Source: Vitis vinifera (lineage: Eukaryota; Streptophyta; Magnoliopsida; Vitales; Vitaceae). Taken from it: a stretch of DNA of 64,000 bases. The notes under the pieces were generated by a model. It saw only the letters and a list, made by a program, of their open reading frames with translations, was not told the DNA's origin and searched no databases. Position 1 is the stretch's first letter. Each line of letters starts with the position of its first letter. The translations under genes were made by a program, and so were the position numbers. Location of the stretch: the NCBI RefSeq assembly GCF_030704535.1, contig NC_081813.1, positions 2,938,001 to 3,002,000 on the forward strand, in the 5' to 3' direction. Shown in pieces: positions 42,101 to 64,000 of this stretch.

Positions 42101-42229
42101 AGACCAGAGAAATAATAAATAAATAATGTAAAAGAGTATAAAAGGAAGGGTAGTGAAGAAAAAAAATGGAAAAAAATTGCTAGTTGAGCCAGGTCATTGC
42201 GCTAACGACGCAAATAAGGGGTTGTGTGA

Positions 42230-42446
42230 AGGGCATTTTGGTCAATTTCATTTGATGTTTGGAACTTGAAACCCTAGCAAAACCCTAATCCCGTGTCCAG
42301 CGGTCTCATATGTGTGTATATAAACACATACGCACAGAGAGTGCCACAACAAACCTACTACTCTCCTAAAGTGTTTTGGTTTCTCTCTCGCTCATCTGGT
42401 ATTGCAATTCTTCTGCCAGTGAGGGTTTTTGTAGAAAGTTAGGAAA
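42230..42446 (+). promoter_or_regulatory. orphan promoter-like sequence with telo-boxes and TATA box
   Basis: AAACCCTAG at 42269 and AAACCCTAA at 42280 are telo-box motifs typical of plant translation and ribosomal-protein genes. TATATAAA at 42317-42324 is a good TATA box. About 30 bp on comes a CACAGAGAGTGCC stretch suited to transcription start, then a pyrimidine-rich leader (TTTCTCTCTCGCTCATCTGG). Only a short ORF of unknown type follows. Confidence 0.5.
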
Positions 42447-42706
42447 TGTTAGAAGCAGGGATTGTGTGTATCGGCGTTGTGCTACAATTGATGCGCGATG
42501 TTGCCGAAAGAGTTCCCTGCAATAATGATGGAGGGGAAGGTGGGCAGTTGGGTTTCATCTCTACCATTGAAATTCTCAACAATCATCTTCCCCACATCTC
42601 TTCCATTTCCCCCTTTATTTATTTCATTTTCTATTGTCATTGCTCGATTTTCTTTACTCCATTCCCAAACCTACCTTCAGAGAACGACTTCGATTTGATC
42701 TATTAA
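42446..42706 (+). CDS. short open reading frame behind the orphan promoter, unknown
   Basis: 86 codons beginning MLEAGIVCIGVVLQLMRDVA, the first ATG after the promoter-like stretch. I recognise no family. The C-terminal half (FIYFIFYCHCSIFFTPF) is hydrophobic, but its composition also fits translated non-coding DNA. A second ATG 53 bp downstream opens an overlapping frame of 66 codons. It may be a truncated gene, a non-coding transcript or chance. Confidence 0.2.
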   Translation: MLEAGIVCIGVVLQLMRDVAERVPCNNDGGEGGQLGFISTIEILNNHLPHISSISPFIYFIFYCHCSIFFTPFPNLPSENDFDLIY

Positions 42707-43946
42707 TCTCAAACAACAATCATTACAAATTTTTTTTAAATAATTAAATATAAAAATATGAATATTAAAAAAAAATTATATATATATCATTATTTATTTT
42801 ATATTATTGAATCTTGAATTAAATAAATTATAATTTTAATATTAAATATATCATAATTTATCTCATTAATCTTATTTTAAAATATTTATTATCACTATAT
42901 TTTTAATTTTTTTATATATTTATATTTCAATTTTATTTAATTTTAAATATTTTTATTTTAAAATATAAAAAATAATTAAATTTTAATATTTTATAAATTA
43001 AAATTAATTTAACAAGATAAATTATTAATATGATTTTTAATATTTTTAATTATTTAAATAAATTAATGTAAATAACAAAAAATTATCATCATAAATTTGT
43101 ACTAAAATTTTAGATATTAAATCTTAAATAAAATATTTTATTTTATATAAATCATAAAAATGATTTAATTTTTATTTAAAATAAAATAAAACATGTTTTG
43201 AATTTTTAAAATAAATATATTCATTTGTATTCCTTTTGAATGAACAATGGATAGCAGAAGAACTGCTTTGAGAAAGTCACACAAGTTATGAAGAGTCAGC
43301 CGCAAAATCTTCAAGTATGGACTTCATATCATATGTTTGTTTCCCATTGTGAAATCTTGTTTTCAATATTGTTCCCAATTTCCAAATTATATCAATAGAT
43401 TGAAAATGAAAATCTCTTGAAACATTAATTGGATTTGGGAGGGGTGTTTGGGTTATCACCAAGGACTTGAGATCATCATGAGCCTTAGCTTTAATGGTCT
43501 CTTGGATGATAATGTACCAAAAATGTATATTAGTAATTAACATATATATGAATTTTGATACATATCATTCAGACAAGTCACTGAGTTTGAAAGCAATATC
43601 GATCCCATTGCTACTCTGGAAACCCACCTACATAAGCTGAGCAGTAGCCATTAATATGGATCACAACGAGATTGCAACAGGCCATGCCGACACTTCTGAG
43701 GATAAGAATTGCAAGGAGGAGGCTTCAACAATGAAAGCAAACTGTAGGACCCCTGATATTACAGGCTCTTGGCTACAATTACCAATTCCAAATGTTACCA
43801 AAAAAGTCTTTCAAGTCGCCTCACCTTTTTGGTGTCCTGTTAAAACAACTGTTATTAGTCAGAGCCACTACGGCAACTCATCATCTCCACTTTTCAGTTC
43901 TTCACTTGTTTTTCAACTCATCTTTTTTCTGTCATCCCCTCAAGCA

Positions 43947-46598
43947 ATGGATTGTGTGAGCCCAATCTTGGACGTAGCCACCCGCTTGTGGGATTGCACC
44001 GCCAAGCGTGTAGTTTATATTCCTGAGCTTGAAAAAAATCTCAACTCTCTGAAGAGCTTAACGGAGGAACTGAGCAACTTAAGTAAGGATGTGATGGTAA
44101 GTGTTGAGCGTGAGGAGGAACTACAACAGAGTAGGCGTACGCATGAAGTGGATGGTTGGCTCCTCGCTGTGCAGGTCATGGAAGCTGAAGTGGAAGAAAT
44201 ATTGCAAAATGGGCATCAAGAAATCCAACAGAAATGTCTCGGAACCTGTCCTAAGAATTGCAGGTCAAGCTACAGGCTGGGGAAGATTGTGAGTAGAAAG
44301 ATCGATGCTGTGACTGAATTAAAGGGCAAAGGGCATTTTGATTTTGTGGCTCATACATTGCCTTGTGCTCCTGTGGATGAGAGACCGATGGGGAAGACTG
44401 TGGGCTTAGACTTGATGTTCGAGAAGGTTCGAAGATGCCTGGAAGATGAGCAAGTAAGAAGTATTGGGTTGTATGGAATTGGGGGTGCTGGAAAAACGAC
44501 CCTCTTGCGGAAAATCAATAATGAGTATTTTGGTAAAAGAAACGATTTTGATGTGGTGATATGGATAGTGGTGTCAAAACCAATCAACATAGGAAATATT
44601 CAAGACGTGATCCTGAATAAATTACCGACCCCAGAGCACAAATGGAAGAATCGTAGCAAGGAAGAGAAGGCTGCAGAAATATGCAAGTTGTTGAAAGCCA
44701 AAAACTTTGTGATATTGCTTGATGATATGTGGGAGCGACTCGATCTCTTCGAGGTGGGGATCCCTCATTTGGGTGACCAAACTAAGTCCAAAGTAGTACT
44801 CACTACGCGATCTGAACGAGTATGCGATGAAATGGAAGTTCATAAGAGGATGAGGGTAAAGTGTTTGACACCGGATGAAGCATTTTCTCTGTTCCGTGAC
44901 AAGGTTGGTGAGAATATCTTGAATTCACATCCGGAAATAAAAAGGCTTGCAAAGATTGTCATTGAAGAATGTAAAGGACTGCCACTTGCCCTCATCGTCA
45001 TTGGGCGATCAATGGCTAGCAGAAAAACTCCTCGAGAATGGGAGCAAGCAATTCAAGTGCTGAAGAGTTACCCAGCAGAGTTTTCAGGTATGGGAGATCA
45101 AGTATTTCCAATTTTGAAATTCAGTTATGATCACTTGGACAATGATACCATCAAATCATGTTTCCTATATTGTTCTACATTCCCTGAAGACCATGAAATT
45201 CTGAATGAAGGCCTCATAGATCTTTGGATTGGGGAGGGGTTTCTGAACAAATTTGATGATATACACAAAGCACATAATCAAGGAGATGAGATTATTAGAA
45301 GCTTAAAACTTGCGTGTCTCTTGGAAGGCGATGTATCTGAAGACACTTGTAAGATGCATGATGTGATCCGTGACATGGCTCTATGGTTATCATGTGATTA
45401 TGGGAAAAAAAGACACAAAATTTTTGTACTAGATCATGTTCAGTTGATTGAAGCATATGAAATTGTGAAATGGAAAGAAGCTCAACGGATTTCACTATGG
45501 GATTCTAATATCAATAAAGGATTCTCTCTATCACCTTGTTTCCCCAATCTCCAAACTTTGATTTTGATAAATAGTAACATGAAGTCACTTCCAATTGGAT
45601 TCTTCCAATCCATGCCTGCCATAAGAGTTTTGGATTTGTCACGTAATGAAGAATTAGTGGAGTTACCTTTGGAGATTTGCAGATTAGAGAGTTTGGAATA
45701 TCTGAATCTAACATGGACCAGTATAAAAAGGATGCCTATAGAACTAAAGAATTTGACAAAACTGAGGTGTTTGATATTGGACCGTGTAAAGTGGCTTGAA
45801 GTAATTCCATCAAATGTGATATCTTGCCTTCCAAATTTGCAGATGTTTAAAATGGTGCACCGCATTTCCCTAGATATTGTGGAATATGATGAAGTTGGAG
45901 TGTTGCAGGAGTTGGAATGCTTGCAATACCTGAGTTGGATAAGTATTAGCTTACTTACAGCCCCAGTTGTTAAAAAATATCTCACCTCCTTGATACTGCA
46001 GAAGCGCATACGAGAACTAAACATGAGGACGTGCCCAGGTTTGAAGGTGGTGGAGCTGCCACTTTCGACTTTGCAAACACTCACTATGCTTGGATTTGAT
46101 CATTGTAATGATTTGGAACGTGTTAAAATAAATATGGGACTGTCTCGAGGTCATATCTCAAACTCAAACTTCCACAACCTTGTTCGTGTGAATATTTCTG
46201 GGTGTCGATTCTTGGACCTGACCTGGCTTATTTATGCTTCAAGCCTTGAGTTCCTGTTGGTTCGCACTAGTCGTGACATGGAAGAAATTATAGGGAGTGA
46301 TGAGTGTGGAGACTCAGAAATTGACCAACAAAATCTCAGCATATTCTCAAGACTTGTGGTGTTATGGTTGCATGATCTCCCAAATCTAAAGAGTATCTAC
46401 AGGCGGGCCTTGCCATTTCATTCCCTAAAAAAGATCCATGTGTATCATTGTCCAAATCTAAGGAAATTGCCATTGAATTCCAATAGTGCCAGCAACACTC
46501 TAAAAATAATTGAGGGGGAATCAAGCTGGTGGGAGAACTTGCAGTGGGAGGATGACAACCTCAAGCGCACTTTCACTCCGTATTTCAAAACATGGTGA
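43947..46598 (+). CDS. CC-NBS-LRR disease resistance protein (RPS5/RFL1-like)
   Basis: Intracellular immune receptor, single exon, 883 residues. The first ~140 residues are a coiled-coil region starting MDCVSPILDVATRLWDCTAK. NB-ARC motifs follow in order: P-loop GIGGAGKTTLL (~176-186), kinase-2 ILLDDMWE (~256), RNBS-B TTRSERV (~283), GLPLAL (~345), RNBS-D CFLYCSTFPED (~405) and MHD as CKMHDVIRDMALWL (~467). About 13 irregular LRRs then run to the end (from LILINSNMKSLPIGFF on). All key ATP-binding motifs are intact, so it is probably functional. The frame is open upstream to an ATG at 43656, adding 97 residues. I prefer 43947, because in the paralogue at 63034 the upstream DNA is homologous but in another frame, and family members start with this Met. 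Family: the CNL branch of RPS5/RFL1, At5g63020-like. Confidence 0.93.
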   Translation: MDCVSPILDVATRLWDCTAKRVVYIPELEKNLNSLKSLTEELSNLSKDVMVSVEREEELQQSRRTHEVDGWLLAVQVMEAEVEEILQNGHQEIQQKCLGTCPKNCRSSYRLGKIVSRKIDAVTELKGKGHFDFVAHTLPCAPVDERPMGKTVGLDLMFEKVRRCLEDEQVRSIGLYGIGGAGKTTLLRKINNEYFGKRNDFDVVIWIVVSKPINIGNIQDVILNKLPTPEHKWKNRSKEEKAAEICKLLKAKNFVILLDDMWERLDLFEVGIPHLGDQTKSKVVLTTRSERVCDEMEVHKRMRVKCLTPDEAFSLFRDKVGENILNSHPEIKRLAKIVIEECKGLPLALIVIGRSMASRKTPREWEQAIQVLKSYPAEFSGMGDQVFPILKFSYDHLDNDTIKSCFLYCSTFPEDHEILNEGLIDLWIGEGFLNKFDDIHKAHNQGDEIIRSLKLACLLEGDVSEDTCKMHDVIRDMALWLSCDYGKKRHKIFVLDHVQLIEAYEIVKWKEAQRISLWDSNINKGFSLSPCFPNLQTLILINSNMKSLPIGFFQSMPAIRVLDLSRNEELVELPLEICRLESLEYLNLTWTSIKRMPIELKNLTKLRCLILDRVKWLEVIPSNVISCLPNLQMFKMVHRISLDIVEYDEVGVLQELECLQYLSWISISLLTAPVVKKYLTSLILQKRIRELNMRTCPGLKVVELPLSTLQTLTMLGFDHCNDLERVKINMGLSRGHISNSNFHNLVRVNISGCRFLDLTWLIYASSLEFLLVRTSRDMEEIIGSDECGDSEIDQQNLSIFSRLVVLWLHDLPNLKSIYRRALPFHSLKKIHVYHCPNLRKLPLNSNSASNTLKIIEGESSWWENLQWEDDNLKRTFTPYFKTW

Positions 46599-48000: not shown

Positions 48001-48855
48001 ATGCATAGTTGGGCTCAAAAGATAGAGTTTTGGGTCAAAATGGCCCATTTATATATACATATATAAAATTAGTGTGGATCCCGCATTTTGGCTCATGCGT
48101 TTCCACTCAATGGCGAGCTCGATTTTTATTCAAAAAATGATTTTATTTATTAGAAAATGACTTGGAGTCGCCACTTATTTTTGTTTTATTTTTAAAAGGA
48201 TAAACAAAATAAGAAATAAAACCCTAAGTGTGACTCCTTATTTTGGAAAAGGTGGTCTGTGCAAAATCGGATCGGGTTCGAGGGTTAGGTTACCTATCGG
48301 GAATGTACGAAAAAGACCGTAGCACCCCTCTAAGTCTCTAAAGTCGGGTCTCTACTAATAAAATGAAGTTAACGTGACAATTGATGAGGAAATCAATGAA
48401 TACTCAGAGCGATCATGCAATTGTGAGAATCAAAACACTCAATAAAGAATGACCAAGGTGAGAGTGAGTGCGTACCTGGGTAACGAGCCACCATGCGCTA
48501 TCAAAAGAGGAGGTTAGTGCACAATAATAGACATAAAACATAACTCACATGCCACTAAATCGAGTACAAAATCATCATATATCATGATTCAATCAAATTG
48601 ACTTTAAGAGAAAACATCCAATAATGTTGGGCCCCCACCAAAGCCCATTTATTTTTGCACGAATTAATTCCATAAATTCCATCACTTGAAATTACAAAAT
48701 TGAATTTATGCTTATTTTAAAATATTTAAAAAAATCATGAAAATTGGATGCGGAAGAAAATGACAGCTAATTTTATTGGAAAAATAGATTTTTGGAACCT
48801 AAAGAAAAAATGCTAAGGATGAAAAATGGAAGAGTTTGAAACCCATCTGTATTCT

Positions 48856-49118
48856 AGCCGACGGCTCGAATGGTCTGGGCTCGCCTTTGGGTCAACACCT
48901 TCTGGTCCTTGAGATCCTCGGTTAAAGCCCCAATGTCTGTCCATTTGAGATCGGTGATCTCTTTGGACTGAAAATCAAGGAGAGGGACATCGCCGTAGTT
49001 GGAAGCGAGGGGGTCGGGAGTGTCGTCTATAGAAATCCCGGCAACAGAAGCAGAGGCGGCGAAGGCTGCTTCTTGGCAGCGGCGCTGCTTTTCAAATGTG
49101 GCGGCCTCTTTCTTGGTG
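48856..49118 (-). pseudogene. captured fragment: aspartyl-tRNA synthetase N-terminal region
   Basis: Minus-strand translation contains SIDDTPDPLASNYGDVPLL, then WTDIGALTEDLKDQKVL and RAQTIRAVG. These match the N-terminal and start of anticodon-binding region of plant cytosolic aspartyl-tRNA synthetase as I remember it. It is directly joined to the IMP dehydrogenase fragment. Only about 90 residues' worth is present. It is a relic inside element 1 and is not expected to make a synthetase. Confidence 0.75.
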
Positions 49119-49352
49119 TCAACAGTGGCCAAGGCCACGGTCATGGCAGATTCGGTGATGGTGCCCATCGACGACGCCACGACAGAGCATTGAGAGATGG
49201 ATGTTGTGACTGAGTTTAGTACCCAGCTGGATAGCGTTGGCAATGAAGTCAATATAACCTGGATGGAAGATGACGTCATTATAAGTATAGGAATAGCCTT
49301 GGTTAAAGAACTTCACCGCCGGAAAACCGTTTTCGATGGGAACTCCATCCAT
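49119..49352 (-). pseudogene. captured fragment: IMP dehydrogenase N-terminal region
   Basis: Minus-strand translation shows ENGFPAVKFFNQGYSYTYND and VIFHPGYIDF, the highly conserved N-terminus of plant IMPDH (the enzyme committing IMP to GTP synthesis). SMGTITESAMTVALA, matching the (P)MDTVxESxMAxAMA motif, follows. Only the first ~80 residues of the gene are represented. A degraded relic within element 1, fused on its 3' side to the aspartyl-tRNA synthetase fragment. Confidence 0.75.
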
Positions 49353-49359
49353 ACCTCCG

Positions 49360-49860
49360 ACAGTATCGGAAATTGCAGAATTTCTTCCCAGGCAATGGCT
49401 CTCTCAAGCTCACTTCCTCTCATGTACTCTCAAAGCTCCTCACTAATTTTCTTTCTCAAACTTTTATCCTCCTCTGTAACTTTCCCGTTTTCTGCTCTTT
49501 TGTTCTCTGCCAAGAGCCTTGTCATGTCTAAACTGATTTGGATAATCCTTAAGACACTTAGTGAACTCATCGTCATAGAGAAAACTGCATGTATCGGCCA
49601 CCCCAAGGAACAGCCAAGCTAAACCACCAAGCTTGAATGAAGGGACACCCTCCATAAACATGTGACGGAGATAGCCCCAATATAGAGCCACTCCTATACA
49701 AGCTACCTCCATTCTTTCTCTCTAAGCACCCTTTATCTTTACTGTATTCTTTTCCAGTTTCAAATGAGCCAATGTTCTGTGAGGGGGATCTTGCATCATT
49801 ATGGTTCCAAGGCTGTATCTCTGACAACTGTTTTTGGAAACTTAGCTGCTAATCAAATCC
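49360..49860 (-). other. unidentified, possibly captured sequence in element 1
   Basis: Protein-like base composition on the minus strand, with overlapping open frames (for example [20 protein letters not shown]), between the IMPDH and TPX2-like fragments. I do not recognise the source. It is unlike the AT-rich DNA around the element, so it is probably another captured host fragment. Confidence 0.35.
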
Positions 49861-50034
49861 AATGAGTAATTTAGAGCTTCCCTCAACTTTGAGATGCTAT
49901 CCTTGCCTGGAATTACCATTTCGAATACCTTCTGCAGTTTGAGAGTGATGAAGAGAGCCATTCCCATTCATATCTTGCAGACCGTTACAAAATGATTGAT
50001 AACCTTTGAGATACAAAACGTTGATTTCAGATGC

Positions 50035-50220
50035 AATTTCCTCTAACTTCGAATAAAACCCCTTTCGTTTCTCTACACATTCAGTGCATCTAAATGTGGG
50101 GACTGTTCCAACTATTGTTAGAGATAAATTGTTCATACAGATGCTGCAGCGGAGGATGCAACAAACCAATCATCCTCTTCGTCCAGATGCTTTCTATTTT
50201 CATGTTGCAAAAGCTTCCTC
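50035..50220 (-). pseudogene. captured fragment: TPX2-domain (WVD2-like) protein
   Basis: Minus-strand reading gives HLDEEDDWFVASSAAASV, then VPTFRCTECVEKRKGFYSKL. The second piece is the diagnostic FRxxERAEKRKEFYxKLEEK core of the plant WVD2-like/TPX2 microtubule-binding domain. The order of the two pieces is that of the family. A short degraded relic within element 1. The 50230-50670 sequence upstream on the same strand has an open frame of ~145 codons that I could not identify. Confidence 0.6.
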
Positions 50221-50687
50221 ACTGTAGATGGGATGGGCCCATGGTAAACAATCTTAGGATCTTTTTCATCTTCCTCCCTTTCTTCCTCTCTCCACGGTTC
50301 AATGTTAATTTGGCTATCATCTTCTGCGGTCCTGGCTTTAGAAACCCATCTCCTCTGAGAAGCAACAAGCTGGATGGTAGAAATAACATCCGGTTTGGCA
50401 CTTGAGGTATGTGGCCTTGTTGATACATTTTCACCTGATATTGCCCTTGCAGACGACCCTTCTAACACACGCCATTTTTGCCAAGGCCAGCGTGGCAGAT
50501 TCGTCAATTCTATATACACTGTGCCCAAAAATCGAGGTTGTCCCTGTGGCTGCCAGCATACACGTCTCATGCCATGTACAACTCTATACTTAAAGAATGA
50601 ATAAAACCTCCTGATTTTAGCTAGTGGTCGTGAGCAGCAATGACACTTTCCGACATGCTCACTCATGACAGTATTGTTAGGACGTCA

Positions 50688-51396
50688 TTGTCTCTGTGTC
50701 AGTCAGGGGCATCACAGAGTAGCCTGTTAGGAAGTGTCCCAAATTCCTAATTAGTATAGATTCTTTTTGTGTAAAGAATATTATATAGAATATTTATAGA
50801 TTGATATATTATTGTAATATTAGACTTCCTTATAGAATAAGGAAGGTTGTTGGAAATATCTCTATAAATATTCTAGGTCATGAGGGGAAAAAGTTATGAG
50901 ATGGAGATGGGCCTATAGAGACTATACGAGGTGGATAGAGATGTGAGGAAGAACGGGAGGTACCTGGTGGAGCGAGAGGACTCGTAGTAAGGTATGGATA
51001 CAAGGAGTGGGGAAACATGGGATGTTTCGGGAACCCAATAGTTGTATATGGTTTTATCCTCTGTAATATTCTCTATTGTATAGTGTAATTATTCTCTCTC
51101 ATCCGTGGACGTAGGCATGGTTAGCCGAACCACGTTAAAACCTCGTATGTGTGATTGTGTTTATCTTTGTGTTCTTGAACTAACATTGTTGGCATCAAAG
51201 CTTTCGCTGGCACTACATGGCCTCCCCAGGATTCGAACTCAAGACCTTAAGGTCTTTTTGGTTGTCCTCCTGGTACCATCTGGGCTACTAGCCCAGATGG
51301 TACCAAGAGGACAACGTCCTAAACCTTAAGGCCTGGACCCAAGTTCGAATCTTGGGGAGGCCACTCTGTGATGCCCATGACTGGCACAGAGCCAAA
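50688..51396. repeat. tRNA-like palindrome (hairpin) interrupted by the copia LTR
   Basis: Inner arms 51219-51287 and 51289-51362 are near-perfect inverted copies around CTGGGCTACTAGCCCAG. Outer arms TCAGTCAGGGGCATCACAGAG (~50698) and CTCTGTGATGCCCATGACTG (~51365) continue the pairing across the nested LTR. Each inner arm contains a GTTCGAATC-type box B (GATTCGAAC at ~51229, GTTCGAATC at ~51343) followed by CCTGGGGAGGCC / CTTGGGGAGGCC. This looks like two head-to-head copies of a tRNA-derived sequence. Confidence 0.75.
50725..51185 (+). mobile_element. copia-type LTR nested in element 1
   Basis: Fossil LTR of ~461 bp: starts TGTTAGGAAGTGTCC, ends GTTCTTGAACTAACA, has TCTATAAATATTC as TATA region near 50860 and a CTCTGTAATATTCTCTATTG poly(A)-type region. 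It is followed at 51190-51201 by TGGCATCAAAGC, close to the initiator-tRNA-Met primer site TGGTATCAGAGC of Ty1-copia elements. Only this LTR and a few bases of interior are present. It interrupts the left arm of a palindrome (next entry), so it entered after the palindrome formed. Confidence 0.7.
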
Positions 51397-52139
51397 TATA
51401 CTCAAAACAAATGACATCCCAACAAGTATGTAACCCATTCACTCTAAATCACCATTTTAGTTGCATCCTCAACCTATGCTCCTTCTGCACCAATGTGAGC
51501 ACGAGATGTGGAAAGAATGCCCGTGTGACAGCCAACATTCACTACAACTTAGCCAATAATTGAATTCTGGTGTGGAGTGATTACTGCCCTATGTGGTTCA
51601 CTCCGCGCATGATACTTGATCAATCTATCTTTGACAATTGACTTGTATGCTAAACCCCTTTCCAGATAGCTTATCTCTCCCAGAGAACAGCCAACCGCTC
51701 AAGGTATTCCTCAATGCACTGTTTGAGGCAAGGACTTTGTAAACACAGTTTACACTCTGTAAATGAGAGCTCTCAGGTGGTGATATGTGAACCAAGACAC
51801 TCCACAACTAGTTACATGGGAGCAGATAGGTGTGAAGGATGAACTTGCTTAAAAACAGAGCAAAAATGATAAGATCCAAGGAATATTCAAGCAAAGCCAC
51901 GTTTCATGAATGATGAATGAGCTCAAAACTGGTGGGACAAACGGGAAGTCTTTAATACAATTTTTAAACATCAAACCCAAACCCAAAAGAAGAATCCCGC
52001 CATTACAGAGGAAAATATCAAGAGTATAAGGGAAAAACAGAATAGAGCAAGTATAGGCAGATAATCGTATTCAACCAAAACAACCCTGTGGCCCTTAATG
52101 TCCACAGCAAACCATAAAACGATATTGATAGATTAGCAA

Positions 52140-52661
52140 AGAATGAAGTTGGACATTAAGAAACAAAAACGTATCGAGCTCGAGGTGATCTTACCTGATG
52201 ATCCACAACACGACCTTCATTTGCTTCTCCTTCTTCCTCCTTTGATCAACCCAGAAAAATATCCTCTCCTTTCCCTCGTTTCCCCTCCGAACTCAAACTT
52301 GTCCCTCAAGCTGAAGGACCCCTCAATCTCTCACCTCACTAAAAAATGGCTACCTTCTCCTTCCTCCCTCTCTGGCTTGCTCTCCAAGCTAAAGATCTCT
52401 CCTTTCTTTGTTTTTCTCTTTCAAAAAAATGTCTCTGTAGAGCCACCACCCAAACCCTCACTCTGGCAGCTTGCTCCTCAAGCCAAAACAGCCTCCAAAA
52501 ATATCTCTCTCTCAGTACCAAACCCTATACACTCCTTTTCTGAAAAAAAATCAGCAACAAAATCACCACCCTCCTCTCACAGCTTGCTCTCCAAGTTAAA
52601 AACCTCCTCTCACAACTTGCTCTTCCTCCCAACGGCAGCAAAAGCACCACCTTCCTCTTAA
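52140..52661 (+). other. CT-rich leader region of element 1
   Basis: A strongly pyrimidine-rich stretch (TCTCTCACCTCAC, CTCTCTGGCTTGCTCTCC) that gives long but low-complexity open frames rich in Pro, Ser and Leu. Element 2 has a region of the same character at 58540-59350. The element seems to be transcribed on the minus strand, so this would be a GA-rich untranslated leader. The 172-codon plus-strand frame is probably compositional. Confidence 0.5.
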
Positions 52662-54712
52662 CAGCCTGCAGCTTTTCATAACCAACACGCTCTTCCTGGA
52701 ATCTTCTTTTACAAGTGTCACTTTTTTATTGCCTCTCCTAAGCACTAATGTGATTCCATAAGGATAAATTGGGAATTGACACGTGGCCCTCCAGGATTGT
52801 GACATCTGGTAAAATAACCTGCAAAAAGGATGAGCCCCAAATGGGGGTCTACAATTAGATATATGAAACTTATATTCAAATTAACCTTTTTTTTGTGTCA
52901 CGTACGAGCAAATTTTAGTTAAAGCCTCGACTAAAGTCGTAGAGGCTTTAGTTTTTGAACTAAAGTCATAGAGGATTTAGTTTTTGAACTAAAGTCGTGG
53001 TTGCCTCAATCAGTTTTTGAACTAGAACTGTAATTGTCAATCAAGACTTCATTTTTTAACTAAAGCTTCAATTGTCAATTGAGGCTTCAATTAATTTTTT
53101 TCTTTTACTTTAAAATTTAATTAAAAACTATAAAATTATAATTTATTATTGAAATTAAAAATATATATTTTAATAATAAATTATTTATAATTAAGGTTAA
53201 CAATTTAGTATTACTTCAACAAATTGATGAATAAAAGATATAAAATTATATAATTTATATAACATTTATATAACATATAAATAAGATATAAAATTATATA
53301 ATTTATTAATTTAAGATATTTAATTTGTTGTTTTTTAAGATATTAATTTATTTGTATTATGACAAATTTATCTTTATCAAAATAATAGTATAGTCCTAAC
53401 CTGCAGTTGTCAACTAATATGTACTTTGTTTTACTTTTAAATTTAATTAAAAACTATTAAATTACAACTTATTATTATTGAAATTAAAAATATATACTAG
53501 TATTACTTCAATAAACATAAATTGATAAATATAATACAATAAATGAATATTTTATTTATCAATAAATTAATAATCTTAAAATAATAAAATTATATAACAT
53601 ACAAATAAGATATAAAATTTTATAATTTATTAATTTAAGATATTTAATTTTTTATTTTTTAAAATATTAATTTATTTGTATTATGACATATTTATCTTTA
53701 TCGAAATAATAGTATACTATTAAGTAATTAATTAGAAAAAGTCTACAACCAAAATATAATTTTTAGTTTTTTCATCAAAGTCACAAAAAAATACTCACTA
53801 AACATTTATATATTGGGGGAAAAAATGTATATAATCTCATATACCTCCACAAGGAGAGAATCTATGGATAAATTTCACATAATACAAATAAATTAATATA
53901 TTAAAAAACAACAAATTAAATATCTTAAATTAATAAATTATACAATGTTATATTTTATTTATATGTTATATAAATTTATTATTTTAAAATTATTAATTTA
54001 TTAATAAATAAAATATTCATTTATAATATCTTCTATTTATCAATGTAATACTAGATTCTAAAGCTTGAATATAAATAATTTATTATTAAAACATATATTT
54101 TTAATTTCAATAATAAATTATAATTTAATAGTCTTTAATTAAATTTTAAAGTAAAATAAATAAATAAATAATTGAAACCTCAATTAGCAATTAAAGCTTT
54201 ACTTCAAAAATAAAGTCTCGGTTGTCAATTGAGGTTTCAGTTAAAAAATAAAGCATCAATTGATAACTGCGGCTTCGATTAAAAAACTAAAGCCTTAGTT
54301 GGCAATTGTAATTTCAATTAAAAAAAATGAAGCTCAAATTGCCAATTAAAAATTTAACTAAAATTTTGAAAAAAAAAATTATATTTCTATGACATAGCTC
54401 TTACATGGCACCAAAGAAGTCAATTTGAACATAAGTTTCATAAAATGATTAGACCTTTTTTTTTTTTTAATTTTATGTATGGGCCATTTTGACCCAAAAC
54501 TCCAAAAGGTAGAAGTTTATTATGCAATTCGATGATGGATATGATAAGTCTAAAACTTGGTGATTAATATATTAAGATTTCAAGAAAATTTTAAAAAATA
54601 ATAAATAAAATATTTCTCAAAGTCCATATGATATTCATATAATTTTTATTTTGTTTTTATTTTCTTTTTCAAGTTGTCACTATTATCTTAATTTATTTTT
54701 CATTAATTGTTC

Positions 54713-54715
<3 letters not shown>

Positions 54716-54745
<30 letters not shown>

Positions 54746-54766
54746 TATTATTATTATTATTATTAT
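54716..54766. repeat. (TAA)n(TTA)n microsatellite at the left edge of element 2
   Basis: About 9 AAT units run into about 8 ATT units, forming a short AT palindrome immediately left of element 2. Confidence 0.95.
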
Positions 54767-55749
54767 ATTTATGTGGACCCCGCATTTCGATCGCTCGAAT
54801 GCGTTTCCCACTCGATGGCGAAACTCGATTTTTATTTTGAAAAATTGATTTTTATTGATTATTTGAAAATGACTTGGAGTCGCCACTTATTTTTGTTTTA
54901 TTTTTAAAAGGGTAAACAAAATAAGAAAGAAAAACCCTAAGTGTGACTCCTTATTTGGAAAAGGTGATCTACGAAAAACCGGATCGGGTTCGGGGGTCAG
55001 GTTACTTATCGGGAAGGTACGATAAAGACCGTAGCACCCCTCTAAGTCCCTAAAGTCGGGTCTCTACTAATAAAATGAAGCTGACATGGCAACCAATGAG
55101 AAAATCAATGAATACTCAAATCGATCATGCACGTATGAGAATTAAAATAAGCGTAGAGAGTGACCATGATGTGAGAAGCTACGTACCTGGGTGGCAAATC
55201 GATATGCGCTATCAAAAGGGGGTTAGTGAACCAATATAGTATGAATATACGCGCATCACAAAGCAGAACAAATCAATCTTGCATGACAATCAGATCAATC
55301 AATCAATCATGAATCACATATGTAGGGCCCCCACCAAAGCCCGTTTATTTTTGCATGAATTAATTCCATAAACTCCATTATTCGGAATTACGGAATTTAA
55401 TTCTTGCCTATTTTTAAAATATTTTAAAAGATCATGAAGGATTTGAAAATTGCTTGCCGAATAGAAAGTGGAAGCAAATTTTATTAAAAAGAGATTTTGA
55501 GTGATCCTAAAAATTCTAAAGATGAAAAACTAAAGAGTAGAATTCTTTTGAAATAAAATAAAATAAATAAATAAATAAAAGTAAAGAAAAAGAAATGAGA
55601 ATTAGAGAAGGATATTTACAAAAAGGGGATTTGAGAAATCATTTTCAAAATCAAAGGTGATGGAACAGTAGGTGGCATGTGGCCCAGAGGTGACCATGCA
55701 TGCCATGCAAGAGTGGGTCCCACGGTCTTATTTTACCTTACTCACCTTT

Positions 55750-55887
55750 TGACGCATCCAGTCCACATCGGGGATGCCAAGACCACGAACAGCAACATCA
55801 ATACATAACAAGATGCCTTTCTCGACTTTACAGAAATCAAAGAAAGTGGAGGTCCGCTTCTGCTGCTTTTGCTTCCCATGAATATCT
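55750..55887 (-). pseudogene. captured fragment: DEAD-box RNA helicase (HAS1/RH51-like)
   Basis: Minus-strand translation [20 protein letters not shown], continuing [20 protein letters not shown], matches helicase domain 2 around motif V of the HAS1/DDX18-type helicases (plant RH51/RH27), which act in ribosome biogenesis. The family form is LLCTDVAARGLDIP. Only ~45 residues are present. It ends at a GTGAGTAAG splice-donor-like sequence. Relic inside element 2. Confidence 0.7.
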
Positions 55888-55979
55888 TAAAGTGACATGG
55901 CCACCATGCAAGGCCTCCACCAATGAGGTTTGATTGGGTGTTCCCTCAAGACCTCCCATGCAGCCGACTGTGGAGATCA

Positions 55980-56400
55980 CATCCATCTTTGGTTTAAATT
56001 CTCCCTCAACAAGGGGACAGAGAGTACCATCAGCATTGTGCCATTGTGCTAGAATCCCACGTTCATTCTTAGGCTTTACACGCCAACAACCATCAGGCTT
56101 CACTTGTATCTCAGTTACATCTTCCCCACAAGACTGCATCGAGGATGTCATGCGATTGAAAATACGGACCAATGATAACATTCTCTAGAGAATATTTCTC
56201 GATACAAATGGGATATTGCCACTTCCTAGAACATTGGTTCATTTCCACAAAAATTTCAAGATCAGAACGGCCCATGTGAGCACAAGGTTTGAATCTTCCA
56301 GCAACCTTCATTCTTGAACCACTCATAGGACATCGTAGATTGACAGTAAAGAAATCTGCAACTACTTCCAGGTCACTGTCACTATCAGCATTATCAATTA
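55980..56400 (-). pseudogene. captured fragment: SIZ1-type SUMO E3 ligase SP-RING region
   Basis: Minus-strand translation contains [58 protein letters not shown], then [20 protein letters not shown] and QWHNADGTLCPL. This is the MIZ/SP-RING zinc finger and downstream region of plant SIZ1. It spans a region that is broken by introns in plant SIZ1 genes as I recall, yet no intron is seen, suggesting capture from mRNA. Degraded relic inside element 2, downstream of the peroxiredoxin fragment in the direction of transcription. Confidence 0.8.
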
Positions 56401-56769
56401 CACCTGGCATTGTGACACGGCGGGTCCAAGTGCACCACATTCCGGGCGGTGTTTCTGGAAGCTTGTCGAAGCAGAGGGACGTTGTCGGCAAAGGAGATCT
56501 TGACCCGGCACAGCAGCGGAGCACTGGAAGTGGGATCCAGGAAAAAGATCGCGGCCATCAGACGGTGGAGAGGGAAAGTGGAAGAGCTTCAATGGTTGCT
56601 TGACGTTCTGGTGATGGCGGAGGCATTTCGCCGCCGGCGGCAAGCCGCCGGCGTCGTTCAAAGACGGCTTTGCTTGCTCTTTCTAGGAGACAAATTAAGT
56701 GTGTCTCTTAAACTGTTGGTGGCTGCACCGGCATCAAACTCTTATGAATGCATTGGCTTGCTAAATCTG
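56401..56769 (-). other. unidentified sequence between captured fragments in element 2
   Basis: GC-richer than its surroundings (CCGCCGGCGGCAAGCCGCCGG near 56631) with overlapping open frames on both strands, none of which I recognise. It probably derives from another host gene or a 5' UTR. Confidence 0.3.
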
Positions 56770-57202
56770 ATTGTTTGTAACCTTCACCTTAAGGTCATCC
56801 ACCAAGAGGGCAAACCTCTTGGACTGAGTGCCAAGGCCTTTCTCTGAAAGATCAAGCTCCAGGCCAAGCGCATGCATGTATGTTGCTGAGCCATCAGCCC
56901 GGAACTTCACATCCTTGTCATCAGGGTAAGCTCTTTGCCCATGCCTTCATCACCAAGGGGTCATTAACGCTAACGAGCAGAATTTCATCAATGTCTTTTT
57001 ATTTCATCTCTCCTTCCTTCTCAATGAAGCCTGGCACGTGCTTCAAGCTGCAAGTGGGAGTGAAAGCACCGGGAACACCGAAAATGATGACCTTCCTGTC
57101 GGTAGCCAGGGGGTACACTGAAGCCTACTGGAGCTGATCTTGCTCATCGAAATAAGTCAGAATCCCTTCCGGAATAACGTCGCCAACTGCAATCAGAGCC
57201 AT
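56770..57202 (-). pseudogene. captured copy: cytosolic-type type II peroxiredoxin, nearly full length
   Basis: The minus strand reads [35 protein letters not shown] (peroxidatic-Cys motif), [23 protein letters not shown] and LGLELDLSEKGLG. The order and spacing are those of plant PRXIIB/C, thiol peroxidases of the cytosol. It runs from the start Met to near the C-terminus without introns, which favours an mRNA-derived copy. The reading frame is broken in several places, so it is a fossil. It sits inside element 2. Confidence 0.8.
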
Positions 57203-58545
57203 GGTCACCACCGGAGATTTTGATATCACAAGCTCACTGATGAAGATTGTAGCGTGATCCAACGGTTTCTGTAAAGTCTTCACCAATTATGATTCCAATA
57301 CCATTAACAACAACATGATCATTAGCCAAAGATTGAACCAAAGTTAATTCTCGGATATCTAAATGAACGAGGCGCCCAGTGAAAACTGCAATCTTAATTT
57401 AAACCCTTATGGCAGCAAGAGAAAATTTGTCTGCATCTCGTCCCATATCCGACTTTCTTCAATTCCTCCAGTCTCCTTGAATAGCCCACAGTTAACAAAA
57501 TCTCTAATAGACCACATTAGAAGGGAGAAGACAACGACATGCCATGAACATGACATCTCTAACATCCCGATGCATTCTTAGGTAGAGGATTCCAAGGACG
57601 ATTGGAGACATCTCTCCAGAATAATGAGAACCAAATCTGTGGCCAAGAAAAGTATCAACACCACCACTGCCTCAGGGTCCATAAAGAAGCCATGATTGGC
57701 ATGCATGACCAAGAGTAACTAAAGAAGCCAGGGATAAAAGAAAGTGTAGCTGGAATCTGGGTGCCACCATTCCAACTGTCAAACAGACAAGTGTTTCGTA
57801 ATGCTGCCATCTAGGAAGAAAACTCTTTGGACACCTCTTTTACAAACAAATGAGGCAGTAGCTAATCCTGAAAGCTGACCATTTAATCAACTGAGTCTTT
57901 GACCTCCCATAGCAAAACCCTACTCACCAAACCATAGTCCATTCTCACTATAATAACCACCTTCAAAACTAACACTGATAGGACTTGGAGTTGTTGAAAC
58001 ATAGAAATGCTCTTCTGGCCAACTTAACATAGCTTCACGAGAGACCTTCCCAGACCATTTCCCAAGGATTTCTCGCGGAGCTTATACAGAAGTCTGACCC
58101 GCCTGCTCTTTGATAACAGCTTCAGCCTGAGGACATGTATCCTTATTGGAGCTCATAACCAGATCCGAGTCTTTTCCTCACATCCCATGCATTTAGATAA
58201 GAGCCACAAGAAGGAAGAAACCATGGAAACAGAGCATAAAAGAAAACAAAATAAAGATGTCATCAAATGAGGCTCCACTTCATGAGTTATCAGTGAACCT
58301 TCTTCTTAGGTGAGAAAAATAGCACTAAATGCAAATATTGGAAGGATTCTTGGGTATTTCATAACAGAGACATGGCACACCAAGATTAACAAAAACAAGC
58401 ATGAATTCAGGATGATATCTCAACAAGTAATAAGTGGCCTTCATTATCCACCCCAAGCAAACCAACAATCACTCAAACATCAATAAGAAACGTAGAGGAG
58501 TAATAAGAATCCAAATCAAACAATAAGTCAGTTGCATTCATACCT
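57203..58545 (-). other. unidentified captured-looking DNA and intron of element 2
   Basis: Codon-like composition persists on the minus strand to ~58200 (for example KIAVFTGRLVHLDIREL near 57370, and WSGKVSREAMLSWPEEHF near 58040), but I cannot name the source genes. From ~58200 to 58545 the DNA is plainer and ends at the minus-strand splice-donor-like CAG/GTATGA, so it may be the first intron of the element's transcript. Confidence 0.35.
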
Positions 58546-59551
58546 GAGAGAACCTTTTCCAGTAAGGCTCTGTTCAGCTGTAAACGCCTTAAGTCCTCCT
58601 CCAATGCCGACTAAACCGGCAAGCTTGCCACTCTGCTCTCTCACCAGCAGCCTCCAAAAGGCGAAACACCTCTGCCCGAATCCCTCCAAAGTCCTCTTCT
58701 CCAGACTATGGCTCCTTGCCTCTGCCAGAGAACAGCAGCCAAAAACACCCCTCCTCTCTAGCTTGCTGCTCCTAGTTCTCCTTAAACCCTACTCTCTCTC
58801 TGAAGCTCTCCAAAAAATCTCCAAACAAAAGCTCCCCTTGGTTTTCTAGCTACCACCCACCTCGGCAGCCTCAAACCTCTCTGTTCCCTCTCTAAACAAC
58901 CAAACAAAAGCTCCCCTCTCTCTGTGGTTCCTCTCAGCTCTGGTTATCCTCCTCTAACTCCCTCTCTCATGGAAAAACTCCCTGGAACCCCTTCAAAATA
59001 TCTTCTCTCAAAAACCCGAAAGGAAGCTCCCCCCCCCCCCCCTTCTCATCAATGGAAAATCCCCTGAAGCTCTAACAATCCTCTCCCTCTCAAGCTAAAC
59101 GAATACTCCTCAGCAAAACTATCCAAGTTTTTCTCCTCAAGAAAACATCCCTCTAAAAATGACCAGAAAAAATCACCTTCTCTCCAGTTCTCACCCTCAC
59201 CCCGAAAGATGAATCCCCTCCTCTGTAACAGCTTTTTCTCTCCAGAAAATCTCTCTCCACTCCGCCCCAAAACGCTCCCCCCCCCCCCCCTTCTCATCAA
59301 TGGAAAAGCACCCTCCGAAAAGCACTCCCCCTCCAGCACCCACCTGCAGCTGCCTTCTGCCCCTCAACAACCTGCAGCTTTTGCAGATTCCTCCTTGCCA
59401 GGTGTCAATCTCTGATTGGCTTTCAAAAACACTGTTCTGATTCCATGATAGCCAATCAGGGATTGACACGTGGCCTCTTAGAAATGCTCCATCTGGCCAA
59501 ATAAGCTGCAACAAATTCAAAAAGAAAGTGCTCCCAAAATGGGGGTCTACA
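58546..59551 (-). other. CT-rich leader region of element 2 with internal poly-C repeat
   Basis: Pyrimidine-rich on the plus strand. A ~34-bp segment with a C13-14 run followed by TTCTCATCAATGGAAAA occurs twice in direct orientation (about 59027-59060 and 59273-59305). It contains TTGACACGTGGCC near the right end, shared with element 1. Open frames here are low-complexity. Confidence 0.55.
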
Positions 59552-60639
59552 ATATAAAATATAAAAAATAAAATAATAATAATAATTGGTATTCATGCAT
59601 ATGTAAACAATGTTTTTAATTATTTAATATCAAAAGTAAACTGAAAAAAAAAAAATTATCACATTCATATGCCTTTTAAATACAATTATCCTATTATTAT
59701 TTATATTATGTTTCGATTAATTTATTTAGTAGAATTTGACCCACCAACACAAATTGTCATCCATGTACCTAAGATATCATATTTCACTAGGATATGTTAA
59801 GCGTATGGATATATTAAGATATTATTTTGATTGGGATATAATATCTTTAAATATTAATACCGATATGATTTACTAAGTTATTAATAAAATAAATAAATAA
59901 TATTATTTTTTAATGTTTGATATTTGCTTAAAATAAAAATTATATTACTTTCTAATATTAATTATTAAAAAAATATGAAATCTTTTTCATGTCTAATATT
60001 ATTTGAAAATTGTTTAAAATTTTAAAACTTCATCAATTAATTAATTAATTAATTAATTAATTATTATTAATATTCATTATTAAAATATTTAAACTCTATA
60101 AAAAAATTATATTATATTATTTAATATATAGAAATAACTTTTATATATTAAACAAAAGAATGACTATTAGTTCTAATAATAAATATATCGATAACCTGAT
60201 TTTACGGATAAAATCTCAACATGATGTTACATGGCCTAAATGATTTTGTGATTTCAGGGATTTGTGAAACAATAAAACATGGGAATGGGTGGTGAGTTGG
60301 TGGGTCCTGTAAGTTAATTTAGGGTAGGGACCAAGAATGTGACGTTTATGGTGAGGGTAGTAGAATCTTATTTCTTCTGCCTTCGCAGAAACTTACAGGC
60401 AACAAACTCCAAAAGAAGGAGAAAGTAGATGTGACACAAGATTCAAAGTGCTGTTTGGGAAAAAGCGAGAAGTGAATTTTTGCTGAGTTCATACTCATAT
60501 GGCCATGCACAAGTAGATTCTAGATTCCCAAGTATTTTTAGTGGGAATACTTTTTCAAAAACATTACAAGTAATTTTTTAACCCTATAAATAATTTTTCA
60601 AAATTTTATCAAAAGTATAAAATCTGTTTGATTAGATGA

Positions 60640-61490
60640 TTTAAAAAATGTATCCAATCAAGTCTTAATAATAATTTATTAAGGTTTATGAATTTGATAT
60701 TGCAAAAAAATTTAAATAAAATAAATAAAAATTTGTTTTGCACCTTCCTTTGGGAAAAGGAGTTGTTCATCTTTAAAGTTTTCCTTTTTGGTTTTTTTAA
60801 TTGCATATAAGGGTAGAGGGATTATAAATAGAAATAATTAGGGGTGTAACACATTGGTCCGACCCAACCTTAAATCCCAATCCCATGTTTGAATGGGTTT
60901 GGGCAAATATTCTCCTATTATTCTGATTAAGTTTGTGTTAAAAATTTTCAATCTAAACTTAATTTGGGTTAGGTTTAAACCAAGCTTGGAATAGTTAATG
61001 TTTTATAATGTTTATAATATTTATTATTATGTATAATAATATTTTTTTATTTTTTATTTTTAAGAAAAATATCAATTTATAATTATATAATATACTTTTT
61101 CATTTTATATAAAATATATATATATATATATATATGAGTTTATTTTTACTTTTTTCACATTATCTTGAAATTTTATCTTATTTATTATTTAAATTTTGAA
61201 ATAAATATATAAAAAAAAATTAAAAGACATTATGAATGAATTTTGAATAATGCAATCCGATCAATAATCAAATTTAGTCCAATCAATCCGATTTTAACTT
61301 AATCAATTCAAATTTAGAAAACTGATATTGAATTAGATTTGGATTAGGCATATTTAGATATTAATTTGGATTAAGTTTAGGTTGTTTGTTTGTTAATTCA
61401 TAATAAATAAATTATGTAAAAAATTGTCATCATAAATTTGTATTAAAATTTTAGAAATTAAATCTTAAATAAAATATTTTAACAGTTATA
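60640..61490 (+). repeat. low-copy repeat block, copy 3
   Basis: Aligns with 41318-42100, then jumps to match 43078-43140 (CATCATAAATTTGT and AAATCTTAAATAAAATATTT). The ~980 bp carrying the orphan promoter in copy 1 is not there. A TA microsatellite lies at 61117-61135. Confidence 0.8.
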
Positions 61491-61585
61491 ATAAAATTGG
61501 AAATTTAAAAAAATATATATATATATTTATTTATGCTTTTCTTTTTTAACTATTGCTACAAAACAGGTACATGTACCATTTGGGG

Positions 61586-62727
61586 GTCCTTCATGTATTA
61601 TGGCTTATGAGATCCATCATAACATTCTATGAACACAAGCAAACATTTAAACAAGCATGATTGTTTTTCATTTATATTGATGATGAAATTAGAGGAACCC
61701 ATCCAAAGTGGCAGGGCGCCCCCCCTACATACGGTAGTCAGAATCAAATATTAAGCTACATCAAACCCTATGCTTTCATTATAAAATCTTAGTGTTCTAT
61801 CACTGAGGTGGAGGATATTCTTCCTCAGGAAAAAGCCTCATAACTGAAGAAGCTCGAATGTTTGGGGTGCCTACAAATTCCTCTAAGATTCACAGCAGAT
61901 TTTGGTGATCTCCATTGTCTATTGGATTGTATTGGTGAACTGTTTCTGTTTTGTAATTAAAATGCGAGAAAACTACAGGGTTTGATGCATATGCCTCGGT
62001 CTCAACCAAAAGAGCTGCAGGAAAAATATCCCCAGTAGTTCCATTTTGAGAGATCACCTCTCTAAAGTTTGCCCTTTGTGTATTGCCTTTCAAAGATGGT
62101 CCAAAATCTCCTTTAGTTAAACTCCATGATCCTAAATTGACATTTCAATTTGAAAATTTTTCTTTTCTTTTACAATCTTTTTTGGCGATGGGAAGCGAAA
62201 TTTAGTGTCCTTTTTGGATATATATTTCCTGTTTTTTGGCTTTTGATTGGATTGAAAATGTTGGGATTTTAAAAAAATTTCACTATTTTAAATTTTAGAA
62301 TTTTTAAGGGTGCAAAATAAGATTATATTTTTCATATAAAAGTTTCTGTATTAAGTTTTATTTAAAAAAAAAAAATTGTATCCAAGCAAGTCTTAATAAT
62401 AATTTATTTAGGTTTATGAATTTGATATTGCAAACAAAATTAAATAAAATAAATAAAAATTTATTTTCGACCTTCCTTTGGGAAAAGGAGTGGTTCATCT
62501 TTAAAGTTTTTCTTTTTGGTTTTTTAAATTGCATATAAGGGTAGAGGGATTATAAATAGAAATAATTAGGGGTGTAACACATTGGTCCGACCCAACCTTA
62601 ACGCCCAACCCATCCTCAACCCAATCCCGGGTTTGGGTAGATATTCTCATTATTCCGATTGAGTTTGTGTTAAATTTTTTCAATCCAAACTCGGGTTAGG
62701 TTCAAACCAAGCTTGGAATAGTTAATT
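61586..62727 (+). repeat. degraded copy of profilin intron 2 and profilin 3' flank
   Basis: 61586-61763 matches profilin intron 2 DNA (39838-40012) and 61784-62727 matches 40727-41672, so the interval 40013-40726 with profilin exon 3 is missing. At 62727/62728 (CTTGGAATAGTTAAT then GGATCAGAACGAG) it is joined straight to the NLR leader, whereas copy 1 has ~1.98 kb between those points. Confidence 0.85.
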
Positions 62728-63033
62728 GGATCAGAACGAGATTGCAACAGGCCATGCCGACACTTCTGAGGATAAGACTTGCAAGTAGCAATGAAAGCAA
62801 ACTGTAGGACCCCTGATATTACAGGCTGTCGGCCACAATTACCAAATGTTACAAAAAAAAGTCTTTCAAGTCGCCCTCACCTTTTGTTTTTCTGTTTTTT
62901 CCTTCTTCTCTTTTTGGTGTCCTGTTAAAACGACTGTTGTTCGTCAGATCCACTGCGGCGACTCATCATCTCTTCTCTTTTCAGTTCTTCACTTGTTTTT
63001 CAACTCATCTTTTTTCTGTCATCCCCTCAAGCA

Positions 63034-64000
63034 ATGGATTGTGTGAGCCCAATCTTGGACGTCGCCACCCGCTTGTGGGATTGCACCGCCAAGCGTGTAG
63101 TTTATATTCGTGAGCTTGAAAAAAATCTCAACTCTCTGGAGCGCTTGACGAAGGAACTGAGCAACTTAAGAACGGATGTGATGGCAGAAGTTGAGCGTGA
63201 GGAGAAGGAGGAGGTACCACAGCGTAGGCGTAAAAATGAAGTGGGTGGTTGGCTCAGCGCTGTACAAGCCATGGAAGAACAAGTGGAAGAAATATTGCAA
63301 AATGGGCGTCAAGAAATCCAACAGAAATGTCTCGGAACCTGTCCCAAGAATTGTAGGTCAAGATACAGGCTGGGGAAGACTGTGACTGAAAAGATTAATG
63401 CTGTGACTGAATTAACGGACAAAGGGCATTTTGATGTTGTGACTGATAGGTTGCCTCGTGCTCCGGTGGATGAGAGGCCGATGGGGAAGACTGTGGGCTT
63501 AGACTTGATGTTCGAGAAGGTTCGGAGATGCCTGGAAGATGAGCAAGTAAGAAGTATTGGGTTGTATGGAATTGGGGGTGCTGGAAAAACGACCCTCTTG
63601 AAGAAAATCAATAATGAGTATTTTGGTAGAAGTAACGATTTTGATGTGGTGATATGGGTAGTGGTGTCGAAATCAATCAGCATAGAGAAAATTCAAGAAG
63701 TGATTCTGAAGAAATTAACGATCCCAGAGCACAACTGGAAGAGTAGTACCAAGGAGGAGAAGGCTGCAGAAATTTTCAAGTTGTTGAAAGCCAAAAACTT
63801 TGTGATATTGCTTGATGATATGTGGGAGCGACTCGATCTCTTGGAGGTGGGGATCCCTGATTTGAGTGATCAAACGAAGTCCAGAGTAGTACTACTCACT
63901 ACGAGATCTGAACGAGTATGCGATGAAATGGAAGTTCATAAGAGGATGAGGGTAGAGTGTTTGACACCGGATGAAGCATTTTCTCTGTTCTGTGATAAGG
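63034..64000 (+). CDS. second CC-NBS-LRR disease resistance gene, 5' part (runs off window)
   Basis: Tandem paralogue of the NLR at 43947, open from ATG 63034 to the window edge (322 codons). The start MDCVSPILDVATRLWDCTAK is identical. Intact motifs: P-loop GIGGAGKTTLL, RNBS-A-like DFDVVIWVVVSKSIS, kinase-2 ILLDDMWE, RNBS-B LLTTRSERVCDEM. Compared with copy 1, the coiled coil has one extra charged run (REEKEEVPQRRRKNEV) and RNBS-B is preceded by one extra Leu from a tandem triplet. The gene looks intact as far as seen. Leader DNA from 62728 is homologous to 43654-43946, but the extra upstream open frame of copy 1 is not preserved, which supports this start for both. No conclusion is possible about its LRRs. 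Confidence 0.92.
   Translation, partial: MDCVSPILDVATRLWDCTAKRVVYIRELEKNLNSLERLTKELSNLRTDVMAEVEREEKEEVPQRRRKNEVGGWLSAVQAMEEQVEEILQNGRQEIQQKCLGTCPKNCRSRYRLGKTVTEKINAVTELTDKGHFDVVTDRLPRAPVDERPMGKTVGLDLMFEKVRRCLEDEQVRSIGLYGIGGAGKTTLLKKINNEYFGRSNDFDVVIWVVVSKSISIEKIQEVILKKLTIPEHNWKSSTKEEKAAEIFKLLKAKNFVILLDDMWERLDLLEVGIPDLSDQTKSRVVLLTTRSERVCDEMEVHKRMRVECLTPDEAFSLFCDK

Follow-up and report, generated by a model that had tools for sequence, protein, structure and literature searches.

Two insertions, e1 and e2, lie 1.9 kb apart and in the same orientation within the 64-kb stretch of DNA analysed here (the window), and each carries pieces of several host genes between ends that it has in common with the other (Table 1). 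In a self-BLAST of the window, the left ends aligned over 803 columns with 78.3% identity (e1 48062-48835 and e2 54761-55538; E-value = 2.6e-166) and the right ends over 184 columns with 67.9% identity (e1 52699-52868 and e2 59386-59566; E-value = 1.7e-10), the latter block comprising about 155-166 bp from inside the elements and a few bases of flanking DNA. The two blocks are collinear between e1 and e2, and amount to about 760 bp and 160 bp in common. An earlier note on this DNA had described identical ends of about 730 and 110 bp; the sharing stands, whereas the ends are homologous rather than identical. As that note had claimed, the middle of e1 is unrelated to that of e2 (best blastn E-value = 0.081, best tblastx E-value = 0.68), and homologous ends around unrelated middles support its proposal of a single element family with differing host sequence inside. 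The comparison is based on these two copies within the window.

The ends of both elements are TGT...ACA and show inverted similarity over about 15 bp, the left terminus being TGTGGA(T/C)CCCGCATTT and the right terminus, read inward, TGTAGACCCCCATTT. The local alignment of the inverted termini TGTGGACCCCGCATTT and TGTAGACCCCCATTT scored 22 in e1 as well as in e2; among 5000 random pairs taken from the window, a score of 20 was reached by 23 and a score of 24 by two. The combination of TG...CA ends with a 5-bp target duplication, also claimed earlier, holds for e1 at all five bases and for e2 at four of the five. Such ends, with a duplication of 4-6 bp, are as expected of a solo long terminal repeat (LTR). 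We rejected the possibility that a single element had e1 and e2 as its two LTRs, because their middles differ and e1 has a duplication of its own; it also fails because the length of e1 counts a nested 0.7-kb insertion.

Table 1. Positions of e1, e2 and the features recognized in them
Feature	Position	Strand	Remarks
e1 insertion	48073-52853		4781 bp, nested ~0.7-kb insertion included
e2 insertion	54772-59551		4780 bp
e1 target duplication, left copy	48068-48072		ATTAG
e1 target duplication, right copy	52854-52858		ATTAG; perfect, 5/5 bases
e2 target duplication, left copy	54767-54771		ATTTA
e2 target duplication, right copy	59552-59556		ATATA; one mismatch, 4/5 bases
e1 shared tail	48073-48835	-	3' side in captured-gene sense; 78% identical to e2 54772-55538
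e2 shared tail	54772-55538	-	window self-BLAST
e1 shared head	52699-52853	-	inverted terminus TGTAGACCCCC, CACGTG; 68% identical to e2
e2 shared head	59386-59551	-	inverted terminus; strong predicted hairpin
e1 possible extra shared part	51833-52698	-	purine-rich leader, possible 5' splice site CAG/GTAAGA (52197-52189), intron-like DNA
e2 possible extra shared part	58209-59385	-	purine-rich leader, possible 5' splice site CAG/GTATGA (58546-58538), intron-like DNA
TGGCGACTCCA in e1	48163-48173	-	base of predicted hairpin
TGGCGACTCCA in e2	54875-54885	-	homologous place
AspRS (aspartyl-tRNA synthetase) N-terminal region piece, e1	48858-49114	-	tblastn E-value 8e-11 against a plant AspRS sequence
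IMPDH (IMP dehydrogenase) N-terminal piece, e1	49130-49358	-	tool alignments span 49182-49358
Ferredoxin-NADP reductase piece, e1	49482-49700	-	73 codons, gap-free
Open stretch, e1	50136-50666	-	177 codons; no source-gene match, no TPX2 match
Nested later insertion in e1	50688-51395		~0.7 kb, MITE-like (miniature inverted-repeat transposable element), ~38-bp inverted ends (89%); outside original e1
DEAD-box helicase (DDX18/HAS1 type) piece, e2	55749-55898	-	50 residues; PDB 8esq, E-value 7e-16
SIZ1 piece with SP-RING, e2	55975-56392	-	Pfam zf-MIZ, E-value 2.1e-11, and PDB
Peroxiredoxin II piece, e2	56770-57202	-	residues 1-144 of 162, two frames, stops present, intron-free

Host gene pieces and their direction

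For protein matching, minus-strand frames were translated with stops as X; PDB was searched with the six minus frames of the two elements, and Pfam with all 12 frames. In e2, the peroxiredoxin II and SIZ1-type SP-RING pieces named in the earlier note were recovered with both Pfam and PDB, and the DEAD-box helicase piece with PDB, its score of 20.8 lying under the Pfam Helicase_C cut-off of 23.5. The peroxiredoxin II piece matched PDB 1tp9, a poplar protein, in two frames (E-value = 2.9e-40 and 3.5e-22). The SIZ1 piece runs collinear with a SIZ1 protein over about 143 residues, with one frameshift, one 5-residue gap and no intron.

The claimed cargo of e1 was recovered in part. The IMPDH piece matched PDB 6i0m over 55 residues (E-value = 2.9e-4) and, without a Pfam match, also a plant IMPDH sequence (E-value = 8.5e-18), whereas the AspRS piece matched a plant AspRS sequence only and has no match in Pfam or PDB. 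Judged by eye, the IMPDH piece extends past a frameshift to about 49130, there sharing its frame with the AspRS piece, and the coding sequence of IMPDH leads into that of AspRS without a change of frame; the tool alignments of the two are 67 nt apart. The TPX2-like piece fell away: no TPX2 match was found in Pfam or PDB with the three minus frames of e1 (for one frame, among the best 60 of 72 matches). A ferredoxin-NADP reductase piece, overlooked previously, matched PDB 3lo8 and 9kk7 (E-value = 1.6e-24) and Pfam NAD_binding_1 (22.8 bits; cut-off 22), and is closest to what is presumably the root type. The open stretch of 177 codons, which had been thought TMEM70-like, gave nothing in Pfam and this idea was dropped. 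The remaining stretches of the middles of e1 and e2 are matchless, and the list of cargo is incomplete. The insertion nested in e1 contains an internal palindrome (51218-51363), and probably belongs to a repeat family because its segment 50773-50898 resembles 25551-25673 (77%, inverted).

All six host pieces identified are minus-sense, and no Pfam family was found in the six plus-strand frames of e1 and e2; the claim that the recognized pieces are antisense and in one direction was thus confirmed for these pieces. They comprise 50 to 144 residues and run collinear with proteins, with no intron inside any of them. Because the pieces reach about 144 codons without an intron, their sequences point to capture from spliced mRNA and not from host DNA. 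SIZ1 of Arabidopsis consists of many exons, and the collinear residues of the SIZ1 piece would therefore favour a spliced mRNA as the source. The peroxiredoxin and IMPDH pieces apparently begin at or before their own ATG, with sequences that by eye resemble 5' untranslated regions, and such starts, together with the common direction, would fit a reverse transcriptase that reached the 5' end of an mRNA and then jumped. That the family takes up transcripts repeatedly, as was proposed earlier, agrees with the different cargo in e1 and e2, these two copies being its whole basis.

The pieces could in principle be independent processed pseudogenes situated near repeats rather than within one element, and their decay and freedom from introns are what such pseudogenes would show. 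However, they are enclosed by homologous ends, which are in turn flanked by matching duplications, and partial pieces of several genes follow one another in one direction. Moreover, neither element has an inner run of A or T of at least 10, and thus neither has the poly(A) tail of the processed pseudogenes made by long interspersed nuclear elements (LINEs). We therefore consider this explanation extremely improbable.

Heads, tails and neighbouring DNA

The minus strand of the two heads contains CACGTG at position 69 and 80, respectively, and CCAAT at the non-matching places 82 and 133, e2 having eight CCAAT in all. Further inward, the possible 5' splice sites are found at position 657 or 1006 from the head end. 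The purine contents of the two leaders are 63.8% and 62.8%, those of minus-oriented 475-nt segments over 1-48 kb being 38.7 to 62.9%. With block-wise shuffling, the longer right-end homology was matched as a whole by 29 of 500 shuffles, and its part beyond the leader by 6 of 1000; the part beyond the leader and splice donor scored 55, compared with 48 for the best of 184 other window segments (0/184 reached it). A first shuffle test (0/100 for the whole stretch, 7/100 for the leader alone and 0/100 for the post-leader part) set too low a bar for the stretch as a whole. These figures are suggestive only of a right-hand shared part that may reach about 1 kb further inward. The stretch 59350-59490 in the head of e2 forms, on the minus strand, a long predicted hairpin (z = -5.3) that contains CACGTG and CCAATCA, whereas its counterpart in e1 (52640-52789; z = -0.1) folds no better than chance.

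Each tail has five AATAAA, whose distances from the end are similar in e1 and e2, and a predicted hairpin with TGGCGACTCCA at its base (z = -2.6 in e1 and -1.8 in e2). We take this 11-mer to be the complement of the 3' end of plant tRNA-Arg. It occurs twice in the 64 kb, both times in the elements; with one mismatch allowed, 0.31 occurrences were expected by chance, and two were likewise obtained in 3 of 100 shuffles. As a possible primer site it is a lead, not proof, because it is not at an LTR edge. The tRNA-Arg primer pattern was found in none of the IMG/VR contigs, and ARAGORN found no tRNA gene. One small RNA in published miRNA tables is presumably a tRNA-Arg fragment, although neither table passage says so. 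It ends in the 11 letters of the plus-strand complement of TGGCGACTCCA (passages of PMC7510087 and PMC8747174).

Exact patterns from the shared tail gave no matches in IMG/VR for some patterns and eight contigs for one, with best pieces of 22-28 bp, and one such pattern gave a single bacterial contig with a 16-bp match in the GTDB species genomes; these were judged to be chance matches and rejected as relatives. A literature search by DNA letters gave, among the matches listed, none that concerned plant mobile elements by title.

In its gene content, the window resembles the nuclear DNA of a plant. Of 65 open stretches listed, ten were compared with Pfam, and eight of these matched NB-ARC-LRR, PPR, peptidase M16, acid phosphatase or profilin families. 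Duplicated blocks (39835-46595 and 60643-64000; 84-95% identical) flank e1 and e2. They contain a resistance gene of the NB-ARC-LRR type, with an open stretch of 985 codons at 43641-46595, and a second copy from 62929 that is cut off by the end of the window. Between the elements lies an AT-rich spacer (53032-54325), which includes a tandem unit of 38 bp (54206-54325) and a block of about 600 bp that is duplicated at 71%. Farther away, a tandem duplication at 19795-30819 consists of blocks that are 77-91% identical, and includes HAD-type acid phosphatase stretches (23464-23886 and 28326-28802). The sole Rfam match at gathering thresholds, outside the elements, is the H/ACA snoRNA snoR135 (42452-42599; 145.7 bits, E-value = 1.1e-29).

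Possible origin of e1 and e2

In the reading that we favour, at a probability of about one half, e1 and e2 represent decayed insertions of non-autonomous, solo-LTR-like retroelements and carry template-switched pieces of host mRNA. A retrotransposon-type integrase would have inserted both of them, and the minus strand would have the layout of one solo LTR, namely a promoter-like head starting with TGTAGACCCCC, then a middle that is transcribed, and finally a tail with ...CCACA at its end. Reverse transcriptase may have jumped between co-packaged templates, so that pieces of spliced host mRNAs replaced or enlarged the middle; template switching among co-packaged RNAs would leave the pieces in the direction of the element RNA and without introns. 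The parent may have been a Ty3/gypsy family of the Tat/Ogre-like kind, with long LTRs and priming on tRNA-Arg. The TG...CA ends and the 5-bp duplication support a retroelement; duplications of 5 bp are typical of plant LTR elements (93.4% of those surveyed, according to a passage of PMC6317226).

The ordinary form of this solo-LTR-like origin, whose probability is included in that given above, is that e1 and e2 are solo LTRs made by recombination from full elements with long, exon-bearing LTRs; the capture would then have preceded the recombination and taken place while full elements were replicating. The one-LTR layout with its 5-bp duplication agrees with this, and an Ogre-like orchid element is described whose LTRs measure 6.4 kb and which primes on tRNA-Arg (a passage of PMC9289625), although no full element is seen in the window; we put this form forward tentatively. 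A bolder variant, which we regard as a long shot, is an LTR-only lineage, in which minus-strand strong-stop synthesis would copy a very long R-U5, switch through several host mRNAs in place of the normal first transfer, and then return to U3. The resulting duplex of U3, host exons and U5 would be integrated directly and spread as an LTR-sized unit, each insertion being its own chimera of host exons, with a promoter and a splice donor ready in front of them.

Several observations weigh against a retroelement with mRNA cargo. No direct repeat of the ends was found in e1 or e2 (blastn self-comparison, E-value up to 1), and reverse transcriptase, integrase, gag and transposase had no Pfam match (E-value up to 0.01) in any of the 12 frames; a second LTR, an internal region and coding for reverse transcriptase, integrase or gag are thus missing, and neither element has the two direct LTRs and coding of a full LTR retrotransposon or the short paired LTRs of a terminal-repeat retrotransposon in miniature (TRIM). 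The reverse transcriptase and additional RNase H of the Ogre/Tat type were likewise unmatched in Pfam with the frames of e1 and e2. The target duplication of e2 is imperfect, the inverted termini of about 15 bp are compatible with a DNA transposon as well, and a possible 5' splice site is kept in the head while host introns are absent. The two tail stretches neighbouring the predicted hairpin are unstructured (z = 1.2 and -0.3). TGGCGACTCCA is set back from the terminus by 90 bp in e1 and 103 bp in e2, is only 11 nt long and lies in a predicted hairpin rather than beside an LTR, where a primer site would be expected, and its two homologous copies count as one observation; moreover, tRNA-Arg is used by 10% of the plant LTR elements surveyed (a passage of PMC6317226). 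Finally, freedom from introns was judged against proteins, and the uptake of host transcripts put forward in the earlier note is a proposal that the uninterrupted pieces fit.

The main rival is a Pack-type DNA transposon with terminal inverted repeats (TIRs), that is, a non-autonomous cut-and-paste element with inverted termini of about 15 bp and a 5-bp duplication that has taken up host exons. The equal score of the inverted termini in both elements, the absence of an LTR pair and the Pack-like asymmetry of the ends around a variable cargo are in its favour. However, none of the identified pieces shows an intron, no transposase was matched, and 5-bp duplications with TG...CA ends do not fit the defining features of MULE, CACTA or hAT elements; we hold such a transposon to be unlikely, if worth serious attention. 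Decayed full LTR elements of the Bs1 or TRIM type, which would have lost their LTR repeats and retained host exons of the internal region, have a precedent in that Bs1 and some TRIMs hold intron-less host pieces between their LTRs (passages of PMC4717578 and PMC13317346). Nevertheless, e1 and e2 have retained one and the same pair of dissimilar ends, which are not repeated directly, and the duplication of e1 is perfect, so that an origin of this kind is quite improbable.

Comparison with known gene-carrying elements

Conserved ends around a variable host cargo are a feature that e1 and e2 have in common with Pack-MULEs, Pack-CACTAs and Helitrons. However, Pack-MULEs have target duplications of 8-11 bp, Pack-CACTAs have CACTA termini and 3-bp duplications, and Helitrons have TC...CTRR ends and no target duplication, whereas e1 and e2 have TGT...ACA ends, duplications of 5 bp and no introns seen in their cargo.

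Maize Bs1 is an LTR retrotransposon with two LTRs. In the same manner as e1 and e2, it unites several host pieces, from three host genes and consisting of exons only, in one retroelement unit (passages of PMC13317346 and PMC4717578); e1 and e2 differ from it in lacking an LTR pair and in a cargo that is wholly different between the two. The soybean TRIMs of the GmaRetroS15 type are similarly non-autonomous, with 5-bp duplications and intron-less host pieces, and two gene-carrying TRIMs hold pieces from more than two genes; however, gene-carrying TRIMs measure 1,172-1,449 bp and keep both LTRs, whereas e1 and e2 are about 4.8 kb long and have no LTR pair (passages of PMC4717578). The Ogre/Tat Ty3/gypsy elements, with tRNA-Arg priming and LTRs of several kb (a passage of PMC9289625), agree with the size of e1 and e2 and with TGGCGACTCCA as a possible primer motif, but e1 and e2 have neither a coding region nor an LTR-adjacent primer site, and the likeness drawn here is one of description. 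In BARE-2 and Veju, abnormal template switching has added sequence to an LTR or TRIM, as may have occurred in e1 and e2; the added part, however, is another retroelement or unknown DNA and not several host mRNAs (passages of PMC13317346).

A layout of this kind lacking LTRs was not found described in the titles, abstract beginnings and opened passages, and we do not claim that it is absent from print. If it is common, it would provide multi-gene exon chimeras, derived from mRNA, behind a mobile promoter and a possible splice donor. Such units would be missed by annotation based on LTR pairs, and they would form a genomic record of the host mRNAs that entered retroelement particles. Gene capture has already been described in LTR elements, TRIMs, Pack elements and Helitrons (passages of PMC13317346 and PMC4717578). 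In short, the finding in e1 and e2 is real and non-random, and represents gene capture of a known type in an unusual form; these elements stand apart in that they have no LTR pair and carry a variable cargo that seems to stem from mRNA, and they merit a genome-wide look.

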